Virus record (IMG/VR): IMGVR_UViG_3300034407_000338
Coordinates: 1-21,058 of that record
Length of the DNA stretch: 21,058 nt
Direction: 5' to 3' (one strand)
Source: a virus
In this document: positions 974 through 13,071 of the stretch, piece by piece
Position numbering within the stretch: the stretch's first letter is position 1
Layout: every line of letters begins with the position of its first letter
The notes under the pieces: model-generated
Seen by the model: the letters and a program-made list of their open reading frames with translations, nothing else
Told to the model about the DNA's origin: nothing
Database searches by the model: none
Program-made: the position numbers and the translations under genes

Positions 974-1172
974 TTACGAGGACTTTGAATCGTACTTCTT
1001 TGCTGACTCTCGACAGTTCTCTTACGAAGTAGCTGAGAAGTTTGATCTCTTTTGGCAGAACAATGAGCTTGGCTATGATAAGAATGGTAAGTTAATCCGA
1101 ACGGACAGACCAAGGAAGAAACCAAAACATGAGTTTGACTTCACCAATAAGAACAAGAAAAAAAGAACATGA
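963..1172 (+). CDS. Small early protein, unknown, GTG start
   Basis: This is a 69-aa protein. I chose the GTG at 963 over the in-frame ATGs at 897 and further upstream because a strong AGGAGG lies at 948-953, 9 nt before it, and the earlier ATGs would bury the start deep in the preceding gene. The protein begins MTHNYEDFESYFF and ends in a very basic tail (R-P-R-K-K-P-K-H, then N-K-K-K-K-R-T), suggesting nucleic acid contact. Its stop overlaps the RNA polymerase start (ATGA at 1169-1172), so it is likely translationally coupled to the polymerase. Family not recognised; an aromatic, acidic N-terminal half and a Lys/Arg C-terminus are all that can be described. Confidence 0.6.
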   Translation: MTHNYEDFESYFFADSRQFSYEVAEKFDLFWQNNELGYDKNGKLIRTDRPRKKPKHEFDFTNKNKKKRT

Positions 1173-3547
1173 GTAGTGAACATTTAACTGCATCGATGGT
1201 TGAGCTTGGCAAGGCTAGGTACAGGAACGCTAAGAAGTTACGAACACAGAACCAGTTATCATCCGAGACACCTGCTTATATCAGACTAGCTGATCAGATG
1301 CACGAAGGTGTAGCTAATGTAATACAAAAGTTCTTTGATGATTGCTCACAAGTACACGCTCCTTGTCCTGTTTGGTTACCTTTAGTGTGGGAATTAGAAG
1401 CAGATGAAGTAGCTCTGTTAGCAATTAAAAGATCGTTTGATTTACTGGACGGTAACGACATGACCTTTGCTTATGTGTCCTTTGAACTAGCTAAGTCTAT
1501 AGAGGATGAAGTACGAGTCCGTTACTTTAAAGATTATGTGGACAAGAATACTTGGAAGCTATTACAAAGGGACAGGAAGAATGTCCGTAGTAGACAGCAG
1601 TATATATCTAAGTTCTGGGATAAAGAAAAGAACTTACATAGTAAAGGTAGGTACGAACGATTTACACTGTGGACTAAAACAAATAAAGCAAAGATTGGTG
1701 CTTGGTTGTTAGAGACTATAAGGATGCAAACAAACCTCTTTACTTTGAAGAGTACACTGACCAGGAGGGGATCAACAATTAAAAAGATAGCACCTAATCC
1801 ACAGCTACAGGAATGGGTTAGACAATTTGATGAGAACAGTGAGTCACTCCGTCCGTTTTGGTTGGCTACAACTGAAGAACCTTTGAGGTGGGAAAGTAAT
1901 TACGGAGGTGGGTACATGAGTGATGACTTACCTGTCCTACCAATAATGAAGAAAGCATTTGACTTACGGAACAGAGACTTGAGTAAGTTATATGAACCAC
2001 TTAACCGACTTCAAGAAGTACCGTATCGAATAAACAAGAAGGTACACGATATAATGTTATGGGCTTGGGAAGGGGATGTCTCTATCGGAGCGATGGAAAA
2101 GAGAGACCTGTTACCTGTCCTTGAACCTGTTGAGAATTTAAAACAAACAGACCCTGAAGCATTCACAGCGTGGAAAAGAGAAGCTAAGTATGTACATGAC
2201 TGGAACTTAGAGACTAGTGGTAGAAGGATGAGGTCACTACGGATCATGTATGTTGCAAAGTTATATAGTAAGATGGAGAAGTTTTACTTTCCTGTACAGG
2301 TGGACTACAGAGGTAGAGTGTATAGCGTACCATCCTTTGTCAGTCCTCAAAGCTGTGACCTTGGTAGGAGTTGCTTGGAGTTTTACCGAGGTGTAGCAAT
2401 TAAGTGTGAGGAAGATGCTAAGTGGTTAAAGATACACGGAGCGAATGTATGGGGGAGAAAGGGTACATTTGAGGATCGCATAGCTTGGGTGGAACAGAAC
2501 ACTAAAGAGATTGTAACGATAGCTGAAGACCCTAGAACATATAAGCTATGGCAAGACGCATCAGAGCCTTGGGCTTTCCTGGCTTTTTGTTTTGAGTACG
2601 CAGGATATAAGGAGAAGGGTTATGGATTTGTTACTCACCTACCTTGTAGGATGGATGCAAGTTGTAACGGTATTCAAATACTATCGCTGTTGTTAAAGGA
2701 CGAGGAGATAGGCAAGCTAACAAACTTAGTACCTGACCTACCACCACAAGATGTATATCAACACATCGCAGATCGAGTGAACGATAGCTTACACAAACAA
2801 AAGAGTAAGAATAGTTTGGCAGGTGACTGGTTAAAGTGGGGGATAGATAGAAGATACACGAAGAGAATAGTAATGACTAAACCTTTTGGTATGAATGGAT
2901 ACACTAGTACCTTTGAGTTGGAGAGTGTGTTTCTAAAAGAGGTAAAGAATGGTAGGAGTAATCCGTTCGGAAAGAGTGAGTACTTAGAAGCTTTACTTTA
3001 CCTGTCCACCATTGTTAACAAGCAAACTAATATTGTGTTAGAGAACCACATCAACTTTATGAAGTGGATCAAAGCAAAAGTTCTTACTTGTCCAGATACT
3101 TTAAAGTGGGAGACACCATTCGGAATTGAGATTCAACAACACATCTACGAGACCGTACAGATTGGATTGTTCTCTGTGTTAGGAATGGAAAAGACCACAC
3201 TTAACTATCGAAAGAACACAGATAAAGTTGATCCTAAAAGACAAGCTAAAGCAGTGGTTGCCAACTACATACACAGTATTGATGCAAGTGTCGTACATTT
3301 TTTAGCTTGCAAATCTGATTACGATATAACAACTATACATGACTGCTTTGCTACGCACAGTACACACGCACCGAAGATGCACAAAGATTTAAGAGAGATT
3401 TACCACGAGATATTTAATCAAGACCTCACAGGAAAGTTCAAGAGTGAGTTATTGAATCAATCAGGGAACACCGAAGTGACAGACAGCTTTGAACTTGGCA
3501 CATTAGATGTGTCGGCACTAAACGACTGCACTTATATGTTCTCTTAA
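1169..3547 (+). CDS. gp1: T7-like single-subunit RNA polymerase
   Basis: This is the phage DNA-directed RNA polymerase that transcribes the middle and late genes from phage promoters. At 792 aa it is shorter than the 883-aa T7 enzyme, mostly at the N-terminus. Landmarks: VDYRGRVYSVPSF at residues 378-390 (T7 WRGRVYAV region); motif A MDASCNGIQ with catalytic D496 (T7 D537); motif B RRYTKRIVMTKPFG with R561 and K565 (T7 R627, K631); motif C IHDCF with H724/D725 (T7 H811/D812). The position of T7 Tyr639 is F573, and the position of T7 His784 is K690 (within DPKRQAKAVVAN). Both are specificity positions, so the enzyme may be relaxed in sugar selection. It starts at an ATGA overlap with the preceding small gene. 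The cognate promoter could not be identified in the window. Confidence 0.97.
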   Translation: MSSEHLTASMVELGKARYRNAKKLRTQNQLSSETPAYIRLADQMHEGVANVIQKFFDDCSQVHAPCPVWLPLVWELEADEVALLAIKRSFDLLDGNDMTFAYVSFELAKSIEDEVRVRYFKDYVDKNTWKLLQRDRKNVRSRQQYISKFWDKEKNLHSKGRYERFTLWTKTNKAKIGAWLLETIRMQTNLFTLKSTLTRRGSTIKKIAPNPQLQEWVRQFDENSESLRPFWLATTEEPLRWESNYGGGYMSDDLPVLPIMKKAFDLRNRDLSKLYEPLNRLQEVPYRINKKVHDIMLWAWEGDVSIGAMEKRDLLPVLEPVENLKQTDPEAFTAWKREAKYVHDWNLETSGRRMRSLRIMYVAKLYSKMEKFYFPVQVDYRGRVYSVPSFVSPQSCDLGRSCLEFYRGVAIKCEEDAKWLKIHGANVWGRKGTFEDRIAWVEQNTKEIVTIAEDPRTYKLWQDASEPWAFLAFCFEYAGYKEKGYGFVTHLPCRMDASCNGIQILSLLLKDEEIGKLTNLVPDLPPQDVYQHIADRVNDSLHKQKSKNSLAGDWLKWGIDRRYTKRIVMTKPFGMNGYTSTFELESVFLKEVKNGRSNPFGKSEYLEALLYLSTIVNKQTNIVLENHINFMKWIKAKVLTCPDTLKWETPFGIEIQQHIYETVQIGLFSVLGMEKTTLNYRKNTDKVDPKRQAKAVVANYIHSIDASVVHFLACKSDYDITTIHDCFATHSTHAPKMHKDLREIYHEIFNQDLTGKFKSELLNQSGNTEVTDSFELGTLDVSALNDCTYMFS

Positions 3548-6124: not shown

Positions 6125-6301
6125 ATGTTAATAATAATTGAAGACCAAAAAGAAAACATACTCTGTGAGTTTATAATTAATTACGAAGAAGAACTAGCAC
6201 CTATAATATTAGCAGTTAAATCTTGCTTTATTAAAGAGTCTAACTTCACTCAAGAGACAGAGTATATACGCATACAACTAAAGGAGAAAACAACCAAATG
6301 A
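6125..6301 (+). CDS. Small protein between gp4 and gp5, unknown
   Basis: This is a 58-aa ORF occupying the gap between helicase and DNA polymerase. It starts at ATG 6125, 4 nt after the helicase stop; an open frame continues upstream inside the helicase gene, but a start there is unlikely. The stop forms an ATGA overlap with the polymerase start, so it is probably coupled to it. The protein opens with a hydrophobic/acidic segment (MLIIIEDQKENILCEF), has an EEELAPIILAV stretch and ends in a charged K-E-K-T-T-K tail. No ribosome site is clear. T7 has several small genes of unknown role (4.3-4.7) in this position; sequence similarity to them is not visible. Confidence 0.6.
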   Translation: MLIIIEDQKENILCEFIINYEEELAPIILAVKSCFIKESNFTQETEYIRIQLKEKTTK

Positions 6302-8172
6302 AAATACTATTCTTTGATATAGAAACAAACGGCATAGAGGACTTCACTAATCTGAGTGACCTCAAGGTCTGTCATTGCTTGTCGATCTACGATCCAATAG
6401 CAGGTAAGATGATTACCTTTAGTGGTGATGGGATAAAGGAAGGAACAAGGATGTTAGCTAAAGCTGACAAGATCATCGGACATAACATCGTAGGTTTTGA
6501 CCTACCTGTGTTAGCTAAGTTGTATGACTTCTACCCTCCGTTAGTTCAAGTACAAGATACACTAGTAATGAGTAGGTGTATATACCCTGACCTTAGAGAG
6601 GATGACTTCAAACGAAAGGACTTTGATCCTAAGATGATTGGTAGTCACAGCTTGAAAGCTTGGGGACACAGGATGGGTAAGATGTTAAAGCTTACTTACG
6701 GAGAGAACGAAGATGCTTGGGACAGCTACAATGATGAGATGAAGAAGTACTGTGAACGAGATGTCCTTGTTACCAAGACCTTGTACGAACACTTCCTTAG
6801 TAAAGAACCTAGTAAGAAGATGGTAGACATAGAACATTGGTTCGCTTACATCATACGCTTACAGGAAAGCAAAGGGTTTGGGTTTGATATAGCAGCAGCA
6901 GAAGTGTTAGAACAAAAGTTGATCCTGTTAAGAGCAAAGCTACAAGATAAACTACAAGCTATGTTTGAACCTACCGTTAAGAAGATGAAGACTCCGAAGG
7001 GATACTCATTGACTATTAAACACATGGATGGAGTCGAGGTAATCACAGCACCTACTAAAGCAAAGTTAAAAGCTATACTAAAAGAAAGAGGTATGGTACA
7101 GAACTTAGTTAACAAAGCTGAAGCACTTGATGTAAAGGAGGAGATCATACCTTTCAATCCTGGTAGCAGGAAGCAGATCAAAGAACGCTTTGAAGAATTA
7201 GGATATGAGATACCTGTCAGTGAAGACGGTAAGACTATAAAGGTGGATGAACCTACTCTTAAAAAGATAAACCACCCAGCTGCCAAGCTTCTGCTAGAGT
7301 ATCTGTTAGTCGTAAAAAGACTAGGAGCTTTGGCTGAAGGCGAGAATGGGTGGCTTAAATTAGTTAAAGATAAGAGACTACACGGACGAGTCAATACAAA
7401 CGGTGCAGTCACAGGTAGATGTACACATTCCAAACCTAACTTAGCACAAGTACCTGCCACTAGAGCAGAGTACGGTGAGGAGTGTAGAAGTTTATTCATC
7501 CCACTTAACGGTAATGTATTAGTAGGTGTTGACGCTAGTGGGTTAGAGTTAAGAATGCTGGCACACTACCTAGCTATTTGGGATGGTGGTGAGTACGCTA
7601 GGAATATATTAGAGGGTGACATCCACACAGTTAATCAACAAGCTGCTAAGTTAGAGACGAGAGACCAAGCTAAGACATTCATCTATGGATTCTTATATGG
7701 TGCAGGTGACGCAAAGATTGGACAGATAGTGGAAGGTTCAGCAAGAGAAGGAGCAATCTTAAAGAAGAAGTTCCTGTCTAACTTACCTGCGTTAAAGATA
7801 TTGAAGCTAAAGATAGAGGAGAAAGTCAGACGATCTGCTTGTTTAACAGGACTAGATGGTAGAGTATTACCTGTCAGATCAGAACACGCTGCACTTAATA
7901 TGTTACTTCAATCAGCAGGTGCTGTGGTTATGAAGGTAGCACTGATAAAGTTACACAACAAACTACAGCAGTTAGGATGGCAACACGGTAGGGAATATTC
8001 TTTTGTTGGTAATATCCACGATGAGTTCCAAGCTGAAGTTAAACCTGACCTAGCTGAGACATACGGAGAGTTAGCAATCCAAGCAATCCAAGCAGCAGGT
8101 AAAGACTTAAAGTTGAACTGTCCTATGGATGGTGAGTATAAGATAGGTAAGTCATGGGCAGAGACACACTAG
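6298..8172 (+). CDS. gp5: DNA polymerase, family A (T7 gp5-like)
   Basis: This is the replicative DNA polymerase with proofreading exonuclease, 624 aa (T7: 704). The 3'-5' exonuclease domain is intact: Exo I FFDIETNG (D7, E9), Exo II HNIVGFD (62-68), Exo III YCERD (Y151, D155). In the polymerase domain, GRVNTNGAVTGRCTHSKPNLAQVPA-type signature residues precede motif A VGVDASGLELRM (D412, T7 D475), motif B RDQAKTFIYGFLYGAG (K459, Y463; T7 K522, Y526) and motif C IHDEFQ (D575, T7 D654). About 60 residues before F-N-P-G-S-R occupy the place of the T7 thioredoxin-binding loop, but resemblance there is low, so use of host thioredoxin is uncertain. It starts at an ATGA overlap and ends 19 nt inside the next gene. 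Confidence 0.98.
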   Translation: MKILFFDIETNGIEDFTNLSDLKVCHCLSIYDPIAGKMITFSGDGIKEGTRMLAKADKIIGHNIVGFDLPVLAKLYDFYPPLVQVQDTLVMSRCIYPDLREDDFKRKDFDPKMIGSHSLKAWGHRMGKMLKLTYGENEDAWDSYNDEMKKYCERDVLVTKTLYEHFLSKEPSKKMVDIEHWFAYIIRLQESKGFGFDIAAAEVLEQKLILLRAKLQDKLQAMFEPTVKKMKTPKGYSLTIKHMDGVEVITAPTKAKLKAILKERGMVQNLVNKAEALDVKEEIIPFNPGSRKQIKERFEELGYEIPVSEDGKTIKVDEPTLKKINHPAAKLLLEYLLVVKRLGALAEGENGWLKLVKDKRLHGRVNTNGAVTGRCTHSKPNLAQVPATRAEYGEECRSLFIPLNGNVLVGVDASGLELRMLAHYLAIWDGGEYARNILEGDIHTVNQQAAKLETRDQAKTFIYGFLYGAGDAKIGQIVEGSAREGAILKKKFLSNLPALKILKLKIEEKVRRSACLTGLDGRVLPVRSEHAALNMLLQSAGAVVMKVALIKLHNKLQQLGWQHGREYSFVGNIHDEFQAEVKPDLAETYGELAIQAIQAAGKDLKLNCPMDGEYKIGKSWAETH

Positions 8173-8636
8173 AGCTTGAACACGATTACTACTTGAAGGT
8201 TGCTGAATTGTACGATACAGTTGACCTAACATTTCCTATGCCCTCATCAAACACACAACGAATAGGAGCGATAGCAGAGTCTAGGTTTATAACAGAGTGT
8301 TTAGAAAGAAACTTTGAACCGCACCTACCTACCACACCCATGCCTTGGGACTTTATTGTTACTTGTCCAGCAGGTACTTTAAAAGTTCAGATCAAAGCTT
8401 CAAGCAGGAAGTCATCTGTTAATACATACTGTATAAATAGTGGGACAGGATGTAAGAGTAAGGATACTATGTGTGAAACAATAGATGTTGTCGGGTGTTA
8501 TATTATACCTGAGCAAACTTGGTGGATGATACCGAGAGAAGAAATAAAAGGAGTAACACTAAAGTTAAACATCCTACCAGATAGTAAATCAAAACATAAA
8601 AAATACCAAGAGAACTGGAGCATATTCTATGAGTAA
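8154..8636 (+). CDS. PD-(D/E)XK-type nuclease
   Basis: This 160-aa protein has the skeleton of a PD-(D/E)XK nuclease of the resolvase-like group. An N-terminal helix carries a conserved glutamate (IGAIAESRF, E42), then come P-T-T-P-M-P-W-D-F (D66) and the strand LKVQIKAS (Q79-x-K81, a Q-for-E variant common in this fold). It lies between DNA polymerase and exonuclease, overlapping the former by 19 nt and the latter by 8 nt, so it belongs to the replication/recombination block. It may cut branched or damaged DNA, or be a former homing enzyme of the intron-encoded PDDEXK group. T7 itself has no such gene here, although similar genes occur in aquatic podoviruses. Activity is inferred from the motif spacing only. 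Confidence 0.72.
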   Translation: MGRDTLELEHDYYLKVAELYDTVDLTFPMPSSNTQRIGAIAESRFITECLERNFEPHLPTTPMPWDFIVTCPAGTLKVQIKASSRKSSVNTYCINSGTGCKSKDTMCETIDVVGCYIIPEQTWWMIPREEIKGVTLKLNILPDSKSKHKKYQENWSIFYE

Positions 8637-9549
8637 AACAACCATACTAATTGACGCAGATGTATTAGCATTTGAATCGTCAATCATAGCACAAGAAAAT
8701 ATACAATGGGAAGAAGAGCTGTGGACTGTACACGCAGACATGACAGTAGCAAAGGAACGAGTCATTGGAAGGATAGAACAATTCAAAGACTTACTCAAAG
8801 CTGATGAAGTAGTGTTAGCGTTAAGTGACAGAGCAAACTTCAGAAGGAAACTATTCCCTGAGTACAAGTCTAACAGAAGGAAGTCAGTATTACCTGTCAT
8901 CTTAAAACCTATGAAGGAATGGATGATCAATGAACTAGACGCACAACTGTGGGCTAACATAGAAGCAGATGATATACTAAGTATCCTTGCTACTGAAAGA
9001 CCTAACAGACAAGACAAGCGAGTAATAGTATCTATAGACAAAGACTTCAAAGGAGTACCAGGAATATTCTATGACTATAACAAAAAAGAATATCACGAAC
9101 CTACAGAACAAGAAGCAGATAACTTCCACTTGATACAGACATTGATGGGAGATTCTACGGATGGATTCAGTGGAGTCAAAGGAGTTGGTCCTGTTGCAGC
9201 TGAGAGATGGTTGAATGATAACGGATACACTTGGGAATCTGTTGTTGCTTTGTATGAGAAGAAGGGACAGACAGAACAGGATGCTTTAACAAATGCTTGG
9301 ATGGCAAGACTACTAAGAAAAGAACAATATAATAAAAAACAAAAACAAATAACAAAATTATGGACACCGAAGAACTACCAAACCACGGACAAAAGGAGAA
9401 TTACATCACAGGTGCACAGCGTGACAGGGCTACTGGACGAGGACGATTCAGCCTTATTCCTCCAATCGCCCTTCGATCCCTTGCCAAACGATTTGAAGAT
9501 GGAGGAAGACTCTACGGAGACAACAACTGGCACAACGGATTCCCATTAA
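8629..9549 (+). CDS. gp6: 5'-3' exonuclease (T7 gp6-like)
   Basis: This is a 306-aa flap/5'-3' exonuclease (T7 gp6: 300 aa), which removes RNA primers and degrades host DNA to nucleotides. The N-terminus holds the first acidic motif LIDADVLAF (D9, D11). NFRRKLFPEYKSNR is the usual arginine/lysine arch region. E-A-D-D-I-L-S-I-L and VIVSIDKDFKG carry metal-binding acids, and LMGDSTDGFSGVKGVG leads into the helix-hairpin-helix that grips DNA. It overlaps the upstream nuclease gene by 8 nt. The last ~63 residues (from about residue 244), rich in Lys, Thr, Asp and Ser, are low in complexity and share their DNA with the start of the DUF5664 gene in another frame; they are probably not part of the catalytic core. 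Confidence 0.95.
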   Translation: MSKTTILIDADVLAFESSIIAQENIQWEEELWTVHADMTVAKERVIGRIEQFKDLLKADEVVLALSDRANFRRKLFPEYKSNRRKSVLPVILKPMKEWMINELDAQLWANIEADDILSILATERPNRQDKRVIVSIDKDFKGVPGIFYDYNKKEYHEPTEQEADNFHLIQTLMGDSTDGFSGVKGVGPVAAERWLNDNGYTWESVVALYEKKGQTEQDALTNAWMARLLRKEQYNKKQKQITKLWTPKNYQTTDKRRITSQVHSVTGLLDEDDSALFLQSPFDPLPNDLKMEEDSTETTTGTTDSH

Positions 9550-9725
9550 GTAGATTAATAGATAGTATGAATAGACATCTGTTAGCGTTGAACGAAGGAG
9601 ATGACAAAGAAGATCACGCAGGTGCTATATTGTGGAATGCCAGTGCTTTCCTGTGGACCGAGGATCAAATTAATAAAGGTAACTTACCACAAGAACTAGA
9701 TGACAGGAGTTATATAAACAAATGA
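9360..9725 (+). CDS. DUF5664 / dATP-dGTP diphosphohydrolase-like
   Basis: This 121-aa protein matches the phage family described as DUF5664, also named dATP/dGTP diphosphohydrolase N-terminal domain and related to MazG-type all-alpha NTP pyrophosphatases. Visible signature: T-G-A-Q-R-D (residues 17-22), G-R-G-R-F-S-L-I-P-P-I-A-L with L-A-K-R-F-E-D-G-G, Y-G-D-N-N-W (N56/W57), R-H-L-L-A-L-N-E-G-D-D-K-E-D-H (R72, H73, and the acidic cluster E79 to D85), then A-I-L-W-N. The paired acidic residues could bind Mg-nucleotide. It may trim the dNTP pool beside the exonuclease that releases host nucleotides. Family similarity begins near residue 17, inside the 190-nt overlap with the exonuclease gene, so the ATG at 9360 is needed although no ribosome site is clear. 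Substrate is not determinable here. Confidence 0.78.
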   Translation: MDTEELPNHGQKENYITGAQRDRATGRGRFSLIPPIALRSLAKRFEDGGRLYGDNNWHNGFPLSRLIDSMNRHLLALNEGDDKEDHAGAILWNASAFLWTEDQINKGNLPQELDDRSYINK

Positions 9726-12144: not shown

Positions 12145-13071
12145 ATGAGTACATTTAGCACTTGCACATCAAGCACACGCCCTGGTTCTCCAGCGAATGG
12201 CGATGTATTATTTGAAACAGACACTAATAATGTTATCCTTTGGGACGGCTCGGCTTGGATAGGCTATAACTACGATTCTACCACTGCTTTTAGTAACACA
12301 CTCTCTTTAAATTTCGATGGAACAAACGATAGTTTAACGACTAATTATAGTCCAACTGCTTCGTCTGCTTTTAGTGTCAGTATGTGGACAAAAAGCTCAA
12401 ATACTTCACTATCGATGACATACTTTTCAAATGGTACAGGGGCAGGATCGCCTGGCGGTTTTCAATTATTAACTCCAGCAGCTACAAAAAACTTTTATGT
12501 TTTGGTTAGCAATGGTAGTAGTAATTACACAAACAATGCTTTTGGTGCGACTGCTGGATCACTAGATATTCGTGATGGGGAATGGCATCACCTCGCACTG
12601 ACGATAAATGGAACAGCTATAAAACTTTACTTGGACGGAGGGGATGCCGCTATTAACACAGGCAGTCCAACTAACACTCAAGGTAGTCCCTACGCTACAG
12701 CTACAAGTACAGTTAGTTACACAGGAAACACAGGTAATGTTTATCATTTAGGAAAAAATGGGGCATACAACTCGTATTATTACAGCGGATTACAAGACGA
12801 AATAGCCTTCTTTAAAACAGAATTAAGTGGTGCAAATATTTCTGCAATTTACAACTCAGGAGTTCCAAACGATGTGGGTGCAAACGGATTAAATCTTTCA
12901 CCTGATGCCTACTTCAGATGTGGTGATGGATCAAGCGATACAAATAGTTCAGGTGGTACACCTAGTAATGCTGACTCAGTAGGTACAGTTACTTCTATTT
13001 TGAATAGTTATACTGCTACCCAAAGCACAACTGCGAATAAGCCAACCTACTCAAACGATGTCCCAAGCTAA
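12145..13071 (+). CDS. LamG/concanavalin-like lectin domain protein
   Basis: This 308-aa protein has two parts. Residues ~4-45 repeat the D-T-N-x5-W/Y-D-G-S-x-W module seen at the end of the previous gene. Residues ~50-240 form a laminin G-like / concanavalin A-like jelly roll: L-S-L-N-F-D-G-T-N-D-S-L, S-A-F-S-V-S-M-W-T-K-S, then D-G-E-W-H-H-L-A-L-T-I-N-G-T-A-I-K-L-Y-L-D-G-G, then D-E-I-A-F-F-K-T-E-L-S. The W-H-H-L-A-L-T and L-Y-L-D-G strands are diagnostic for the fold. A C-terminal region (D-A-Y-F-R-C-G-D-G) follows. Such domains bind carbohydrate, so the protein likely sits on the virion surface and binds host polysaccharide. The ligand is unknown. Confidence 0.82.
   Translation: MSTFSTCTSSTRPGSPANGDVLFETDTNNVILWDGSAWIGYNYDSTTAFSNTLSLNFDGTNDSLTTNYSPTASSAFSVSMWTKSSNTSLSMTYFSNGTGAGSPGGFQLLTPAATKNFYVLVSNGSSNYTNNAFGATAGSLDIRDGEWHHLALTINGTAIKLYLDGGDAAINTGSPTNTQGSPYATATSTVSYTGNTGNVYHLGKNGAYNSYYYSGLQDEIAFFKTELSGANISAIYNSGVPNDVGANGLNLSPDAYFRCGDGSSDTNSSGGTPSNADSVGTVTSILNSYTATQSTTANKPTYSNDVPS

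Follow-up and report, generated by a model that had tools for sequence, protein, structure and literature searches.

The single-subunit RNA polymerase (RNAP) of an uncultured phage carries phenylalanine in place of the gate tyrosine of T7 RNA polymerase (Tyr639), and the sequence evidence shows this replacement to be genuine and ancient, to have arisen once and to have been kept. The lineage is a natural Y639F single variant and not a Y639F/H784 double variant, because the lysine once placed at the second site (K690) corresponds to T7 His772, while the residue corresponding to His784 is a conserved histidine (H702). The gene lies in an IMG/VR record of 21,058 bases (the whole record, hereafter the window), which is probably a genome fragment. 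The features on which the analysis rests are as follows.

1169..3547, + strand: T7-type single-subunit DNA-dependent RNA polymerase, 792 aa (Pfam, PHROG, PDB and model matches)
2654..2656, + strand: codon of D496, corresponding to T7 Asp537, catalytic (alignment)
2669..2671, + strand: codon of G501, corresponding to T7 Gly542 (motif A, D+5); Gly in the window, replaced by Ala in five members of the Phe clade
2849..2911, + strand: motif B, R561-S581 region (RRYTKRIVMTKPFGMNGYTST), where R561 corresponds to T7 R627, K565 to K631 and M569 to M635
2885..2887, + strand: codon of F573 (TTT), corresponding to T7 Tyr639, the last O-helix residue (alignments and model)
3236..3238, + strand: codon of K690, corresponding to T7 His772 and not His784, a variable position (alignment and survey)
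3272..3274, + strand: codon of H702, corresponding to T7 His784, conserved (334/334 distinct sequences that reach this site have His)
3341..3343, + strand: codon of D725, corresponding to T7 Asp812, catalytic (alignment)

The polymerase and its residues at the T7 639 and 784 sites

The 792-aa ORF matched the Pfam families PF00940 (RNA_pol; 1.3e-68, 232 bits against a cut-off of 22) and PF14700 (RPOL_N; 31.8 bits against a cut-off of 30.1), as well as PHROG 414, RNA polymerase (6.5e-172), and T7 RNA polymerase ranked first when the protein was searched against the PDB (6.4e-71). Its AlphaFold model (mean pLDDT 87) had the T7 RNAP fold (Foldseek against the T7 elongation complex 1s76: TM 0.86/0.82, E 5e-41), at an identity to T7 RNAP of ~26%. 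The catalytic set was present (window/T7: D496/D537, K565/K631, R561/R627, Y530/Y571, H724/H811, D725/D812, R383/R425). Papers on phage-type RNA polymerases treat Tyr639 as a conserved residue (PMC4411677, PMC3022604, PMC11617373, PMC5014404), and two of them list it as catalytically essential (PMC4411677, PMC3022604). Since fold, the other catalytic residues and homology place the F573 enzyme among the single-subunit RNA polymerases, this tyrosine should be read as a family-typical rather than a family-defining feature.

The genes around the RNAP, all on the + strand, formed an Autographiviridae-type set (SSB_T7, Phage_endo_I, Helic-prim_T7_N, DNA_pol_A, Head-tail_con, Phage_T7_Capsid, Gp10A-like) and included 5'-3' exonuclease, portal, scaffold and capsid genes; a tail protein of PHROG 446 (tail tube) was also encoded in the window. 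The source is an uncultured T7-like (Autographiviridae-type) phage, with the RNAP as its transcriptase. Among the remaining genes, a basic protein with a weak endonuclease VII/HNH-like match was encoded just upstream of the RNAP region (5-712), a PD-(D/E)XK endonuclease-like protein (PF11645) between the DNA polymerase and exonuclease genes (8154-8636), and a protein with a concanavalin A-like lectin domain (Laminin_G_3) before the portal gene (12145-13071), the last of these possibly a receptor-binding tail protein.

The motif B sequence TKRIVMTKPFG begins at RNAP residue 564, and phmmer, MAFFT L-INS-i and HMM alignments agreed in placing F573 on T7 Y639 without a gap. In the AlphaFold model the O-helix was predicted to span residues 561-573, with F573 closing it at the C-terminal end. 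Tyr639 is likewise the last residue of the T7 O-helix (PMC6511863). An earlier reading of the window, made by eye from sequence alone (the sequence-only reading), had assigned F573 to the Tyr639 site, and the three alignments together with the position at the helix end in the model bear this out. Among the findings which that reading had named as speaking against it were Tyr in all near relatives and another Tyr in the site. Neither of these two was found: Phe was present in 71/71 distinct clade members, and Y578, rejected as a stand-in for Y639, corresponds to T7 F644, a position that is Tyr in most enzymes with Tyr639 too. A sequencing, assembly or alignment error, with the true residue being Tyr or with a different Tyr in the site, is therefore exceedingly improbable given 74 distinct ORFs (Phe codon TTT in 66, TTC in 8) from many independent assemblies, 20 DNA spellings of the motif, a gapless alignment and the location of F573 at its O-helix position.

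The second claim of the sequence-only reading, that Lys occupies the His784 site, did not hold. It came from matching DAHKQ in T7 with DPKRQ in the window, an alignment that stands but was misnumbered: by residue count in T7 gene 1 (NC_001604), DAHKQ starts at 770 and its His is H772, and NFVHS starts at 781 and its His is H784. T7 'NFVHSQD' aligns with window 'NYIHSID', which contains H702 and whose His codon lies just beyond the interval that the reading had covered (2861-3265). Residues at position 772 were diverse (R 120, K 60, L 27, S 26, A 20, N 19, H 18, V 16 and others), with Arg and Lys commonest (180/335), and varied even inside the Phe clade. The comparison drawn with the laboratory Y639F/H784A enzyme thus does not apply, as H702 is retained and is the ordinary invariant His. 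A double variant carrying Lys in place of His784, for which there was only the by-eye alignment, is hardly credible against the residue count, H702 and the invariance of His at 784.

A single clade with Phe639

The survey drew on protein-based scans of viral contigs, genome contigs and named phages and yielded 342 distinct RNAPs covering position 639, which carried Tyr (271) or Phe (71) and no other residue. All 71 Phe sequences shared K-P-F-G-M-N and belonged to one clade of uncultured phage contigs, with identities to the window RNAP from 98% down to ~52%; this clade was the sole exception to Tyr639 among the 342 sequences. In a phylogeny of 119 representatives, a single change accounted for Phe (support 100); the group next to the Phe clade, its sister (L073-L077, L082), carried Tyr639. 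Among the clade-diagnostic columns listed, 639 was the only one at which the remaining 107 representatives (6 from the sister group and 101 others) were uniform for a single residue other than that of the clade.

Two motif B patterns, each representing part of the motif B spellings, were also used as probes. A scan of all IMG/VR with K-[R/S]-x-V-M-T-x-x-F-G recovered Phe RNAPs only in this clade, and a scan with IVM[C/T]KPF again returned RNAPs from the Phe clade alone. Independent origins of Phe were rejected for the spellings covered, as both scans gave only one RNAP clade. None of the 27 RNAPs from genome contigs added to the survey carried Phe639, no cellular or prophage clade members were found in the GTDB genome collection, and no report of a natural Phe at 639 was found in the open-licence literature. 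Between close relatives, dN/dS was ~0.08-0.11 (synonymous divergence 9-12x nonsynonymous); the RNAP gene is under strong purifying selection, with its catalytic residues kept.

A further change in the pocket was nested within this clade. It concerned motif A D+5 (T7 Gly542), a residue at the edge of the ribose and the site of the steric gate in family A DNA polymerases. All surveyed sequences from outside the Phe clade had Gly at this position, and five Phe-clade members from five contigs (L264, L267, L268, L269 and L276) had Ala (codon GCT); these five formed one nested group (support 87). The Phe clade accounts for ~4.5% of tree branch length, yet holds the only Gly542 change, which is suggestive of a link to Phe639 but not proof of one. 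Gly542 leaves space for the 2'-OH, whereas DNA polymerases have a bulky residue there (PMC11617373).

Pocket architecture and ribose selection

Across the Phe clade, R425, Y427, K472, D537, Y571, R627, K631, M635, G640, H784, H811 and D812 (T7 numbering) were kept. Four residues were specific to the clade, F639, M641, N642 and V779 (window F573, M575, N576 and V697). Several other peculiarities were common to the Phe clade and its Tyr sister. T7 Asp471 contacts the triphosphate and metal B; no residue aligned to it in either group, whereas Asp was found in 95/101 other representatives, and in the window this gap falls at 2440-2480, around K431. The spacer between H784 and D812 (window 3272-3343) was 23 residues in both groups, compared to 27-28 in nearly all other ssRNAPs. 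Both also had K/R-P before the gate, and R632 varied in both. The D471 gap, the short spacer and K/R-P, being common to the Tyr sister, are therefore older than the Phe.

In the T7 enzyme, Tyr639 packs against the template base at -1 and touches the 2'-OH via Mg2+ at pre-insertion; with Y639F, discrimination between rATP and dATP drops from ~120-140-fold to ~5-7-fold and activity is modestly reduced (PMC9836923). Acceptance of 2'-F substrates rises on Tyr-to-Phe replacement in T7 and SP6 (PMC13286181) and with Y564F in Syn5 (PMC4538805). In the lineage of the window RNAP, the gate Tyr was replaced by Phe once, in the clade ancestor, and has been kept as Phe since. The Phe ring would still stack on the template -1 base and gate the site, so that catalysis and translocation work, while the Tyr hydroxyl, with its metal-mediated contact to the ribose 2'-OH, would be lost. 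Discrimination between rNTPs and dNTPs or 2'-substituted NTPs would then be reduced, roughly as in T7 Y639F, with leftover selection coming from His784 and Gly542 and with the cellular rNTP excess keeping the product mainly RNA. The effect of the Phe is not simply transferable from T7, because the two enzymes share only about a quarter of their residues, D471 is missing, the spacer is 23 residues long and R632 is variable. We consider lowered ribose selectivity the likeliest outcome for the window RNAP, at slightly better than even.

The main rival is that a remodelled pocket restores ribose selection to the level of wild-type T7, which we regard as a real possibility, though one falling short of even. 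M575, N576 and V697 near the gate could restore selectivity, as clade-fixed residues (T7 641 = M, 642 = N, 779 = V), and the D471 gap and shorter H784-D812 spacer, both also in the Tyr sister, might contribute; long conservation under purifying selection moreover implies a fit enzyme. However, features common to the Tyr sister predate the Phe, no clade-specific new hydroxyl- or His-bearing residue was evident next to 639, and the Tyr at T7 F644 recurs in most Tyr639 polymerases. To our knowledge, none of the candidate positions contacts the 2'-OH. Two features were rejected as compensation, K571 (T7 L637), a position that is K/R in the Tyr-bearing sisters as well, and the short spacer, which was in place before the Phe. 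A less expected reading, and one that overlaps with lowered selectivity and differs from it only on whether the trait matters, is neutral drift, in which the Phe was fixed by chance, the loss of selectivity has no consequence with rNTPs far exceeding dNTPs, and reversion gains nothing. A single origin fits one accidental fixation, and T7 Y639F is active (PMC13286181), with activity modestly down (PMC9836923). Yet a single base separates TAT/TAC from TTT/TTC, and 0/71 sequences had reverted down to ~52% identity, which argues for selection keeping Phe in its context.

Improbable, in our judgement, is a stepwise loosening of the ribose gate (Y639F in the ancestor, then G542A in the subclade) with deoxy-rich or mixed-substrate transcripts as an advantageous trait. 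The confinement of the Gly542 change to the Phe clade bears on this idea, and nothing in the gene content of the window pointed to a use for mixed transcripts. A protein with a dATP/dGTP diphosphohydrolase (pyrophosphohydrolase) N-terminal domain (PF18909) was encoded at 9360-9725; its gene occurred in most Phe-clade and many Tyr-bearing relatives, and a link to Phe639 was rejected given its presence in F and Y lineages alike. Neither an adenylosuccinate-synthetase-like (PurZ-type) gene nor a ribonucleotide reductase large subunit was found in ten records. No convincing candidates came from a search for repeats resembling promoters. In the family A DNA polymerase of the window (6298-8172), the Glu that usually forms the sugar gate was in place at motif A D+5 (DASGLE), as was a T7-like O-helix (KTFIYGFLYG), so only the RNA polymerase is unusual.

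Relation to known enzymes

Tyr639 is where polymerases have classically been engineered for sugar-relaxed transcription. A wild Phe639 clade means that natural enzymes can do without the gate tyrosine, and provides ready-made scaffolds already adapted to the substitution. It opens a direct test of whether gain, loss or compensation follows when nature removes the sugar-sensing hydroxyl, and the Gly542Ala subclade makes a second step testable too.

The closest annotated phage was MedDCM-OCT-S45-C18 (Ayaqvirus, AP013544, uncultured), whose RNAP belongs to the same family and is 31.5% identical. The order of RNAP, SSB, endonuclease I, primase and DNA polymerase was common to both; unlike the window F573, its RNAP has Tyr at 639. 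Among laboratory enzymes, the nearest counterpart is the T7 Y639F mutant, reportedly from Sousa and Padilla, with which the window RNAP has in common Phe at the gate and wild-type residues at His784, Arg425, Lys631 and Gly542. It differs in that its Phe is natural and clade-fixed, its neighbouring residues (K571, P572, M575, N576) are others, the D471 residue is missing and the H784-D812 spacer is five residues shorter. The T7 Y639F/H784A (FA) enzyme also has Phe639, but His784 is kept in the window (H702), which is thus not of FA type. T7 VRS is G542V/H772R/H784S with Tyr639 retained. The window RNAP resembles it in the basic residue at 772 (K690), common in ssRNAPs, and five other clade members have Ala542; VRS, however, keeps Tyr639 and changes His784, and the window RNAP does the reverse. 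Syn5 RNAP has Tyr at the presumed site (Y564), and an engineered Phe there lowers discrimination further.
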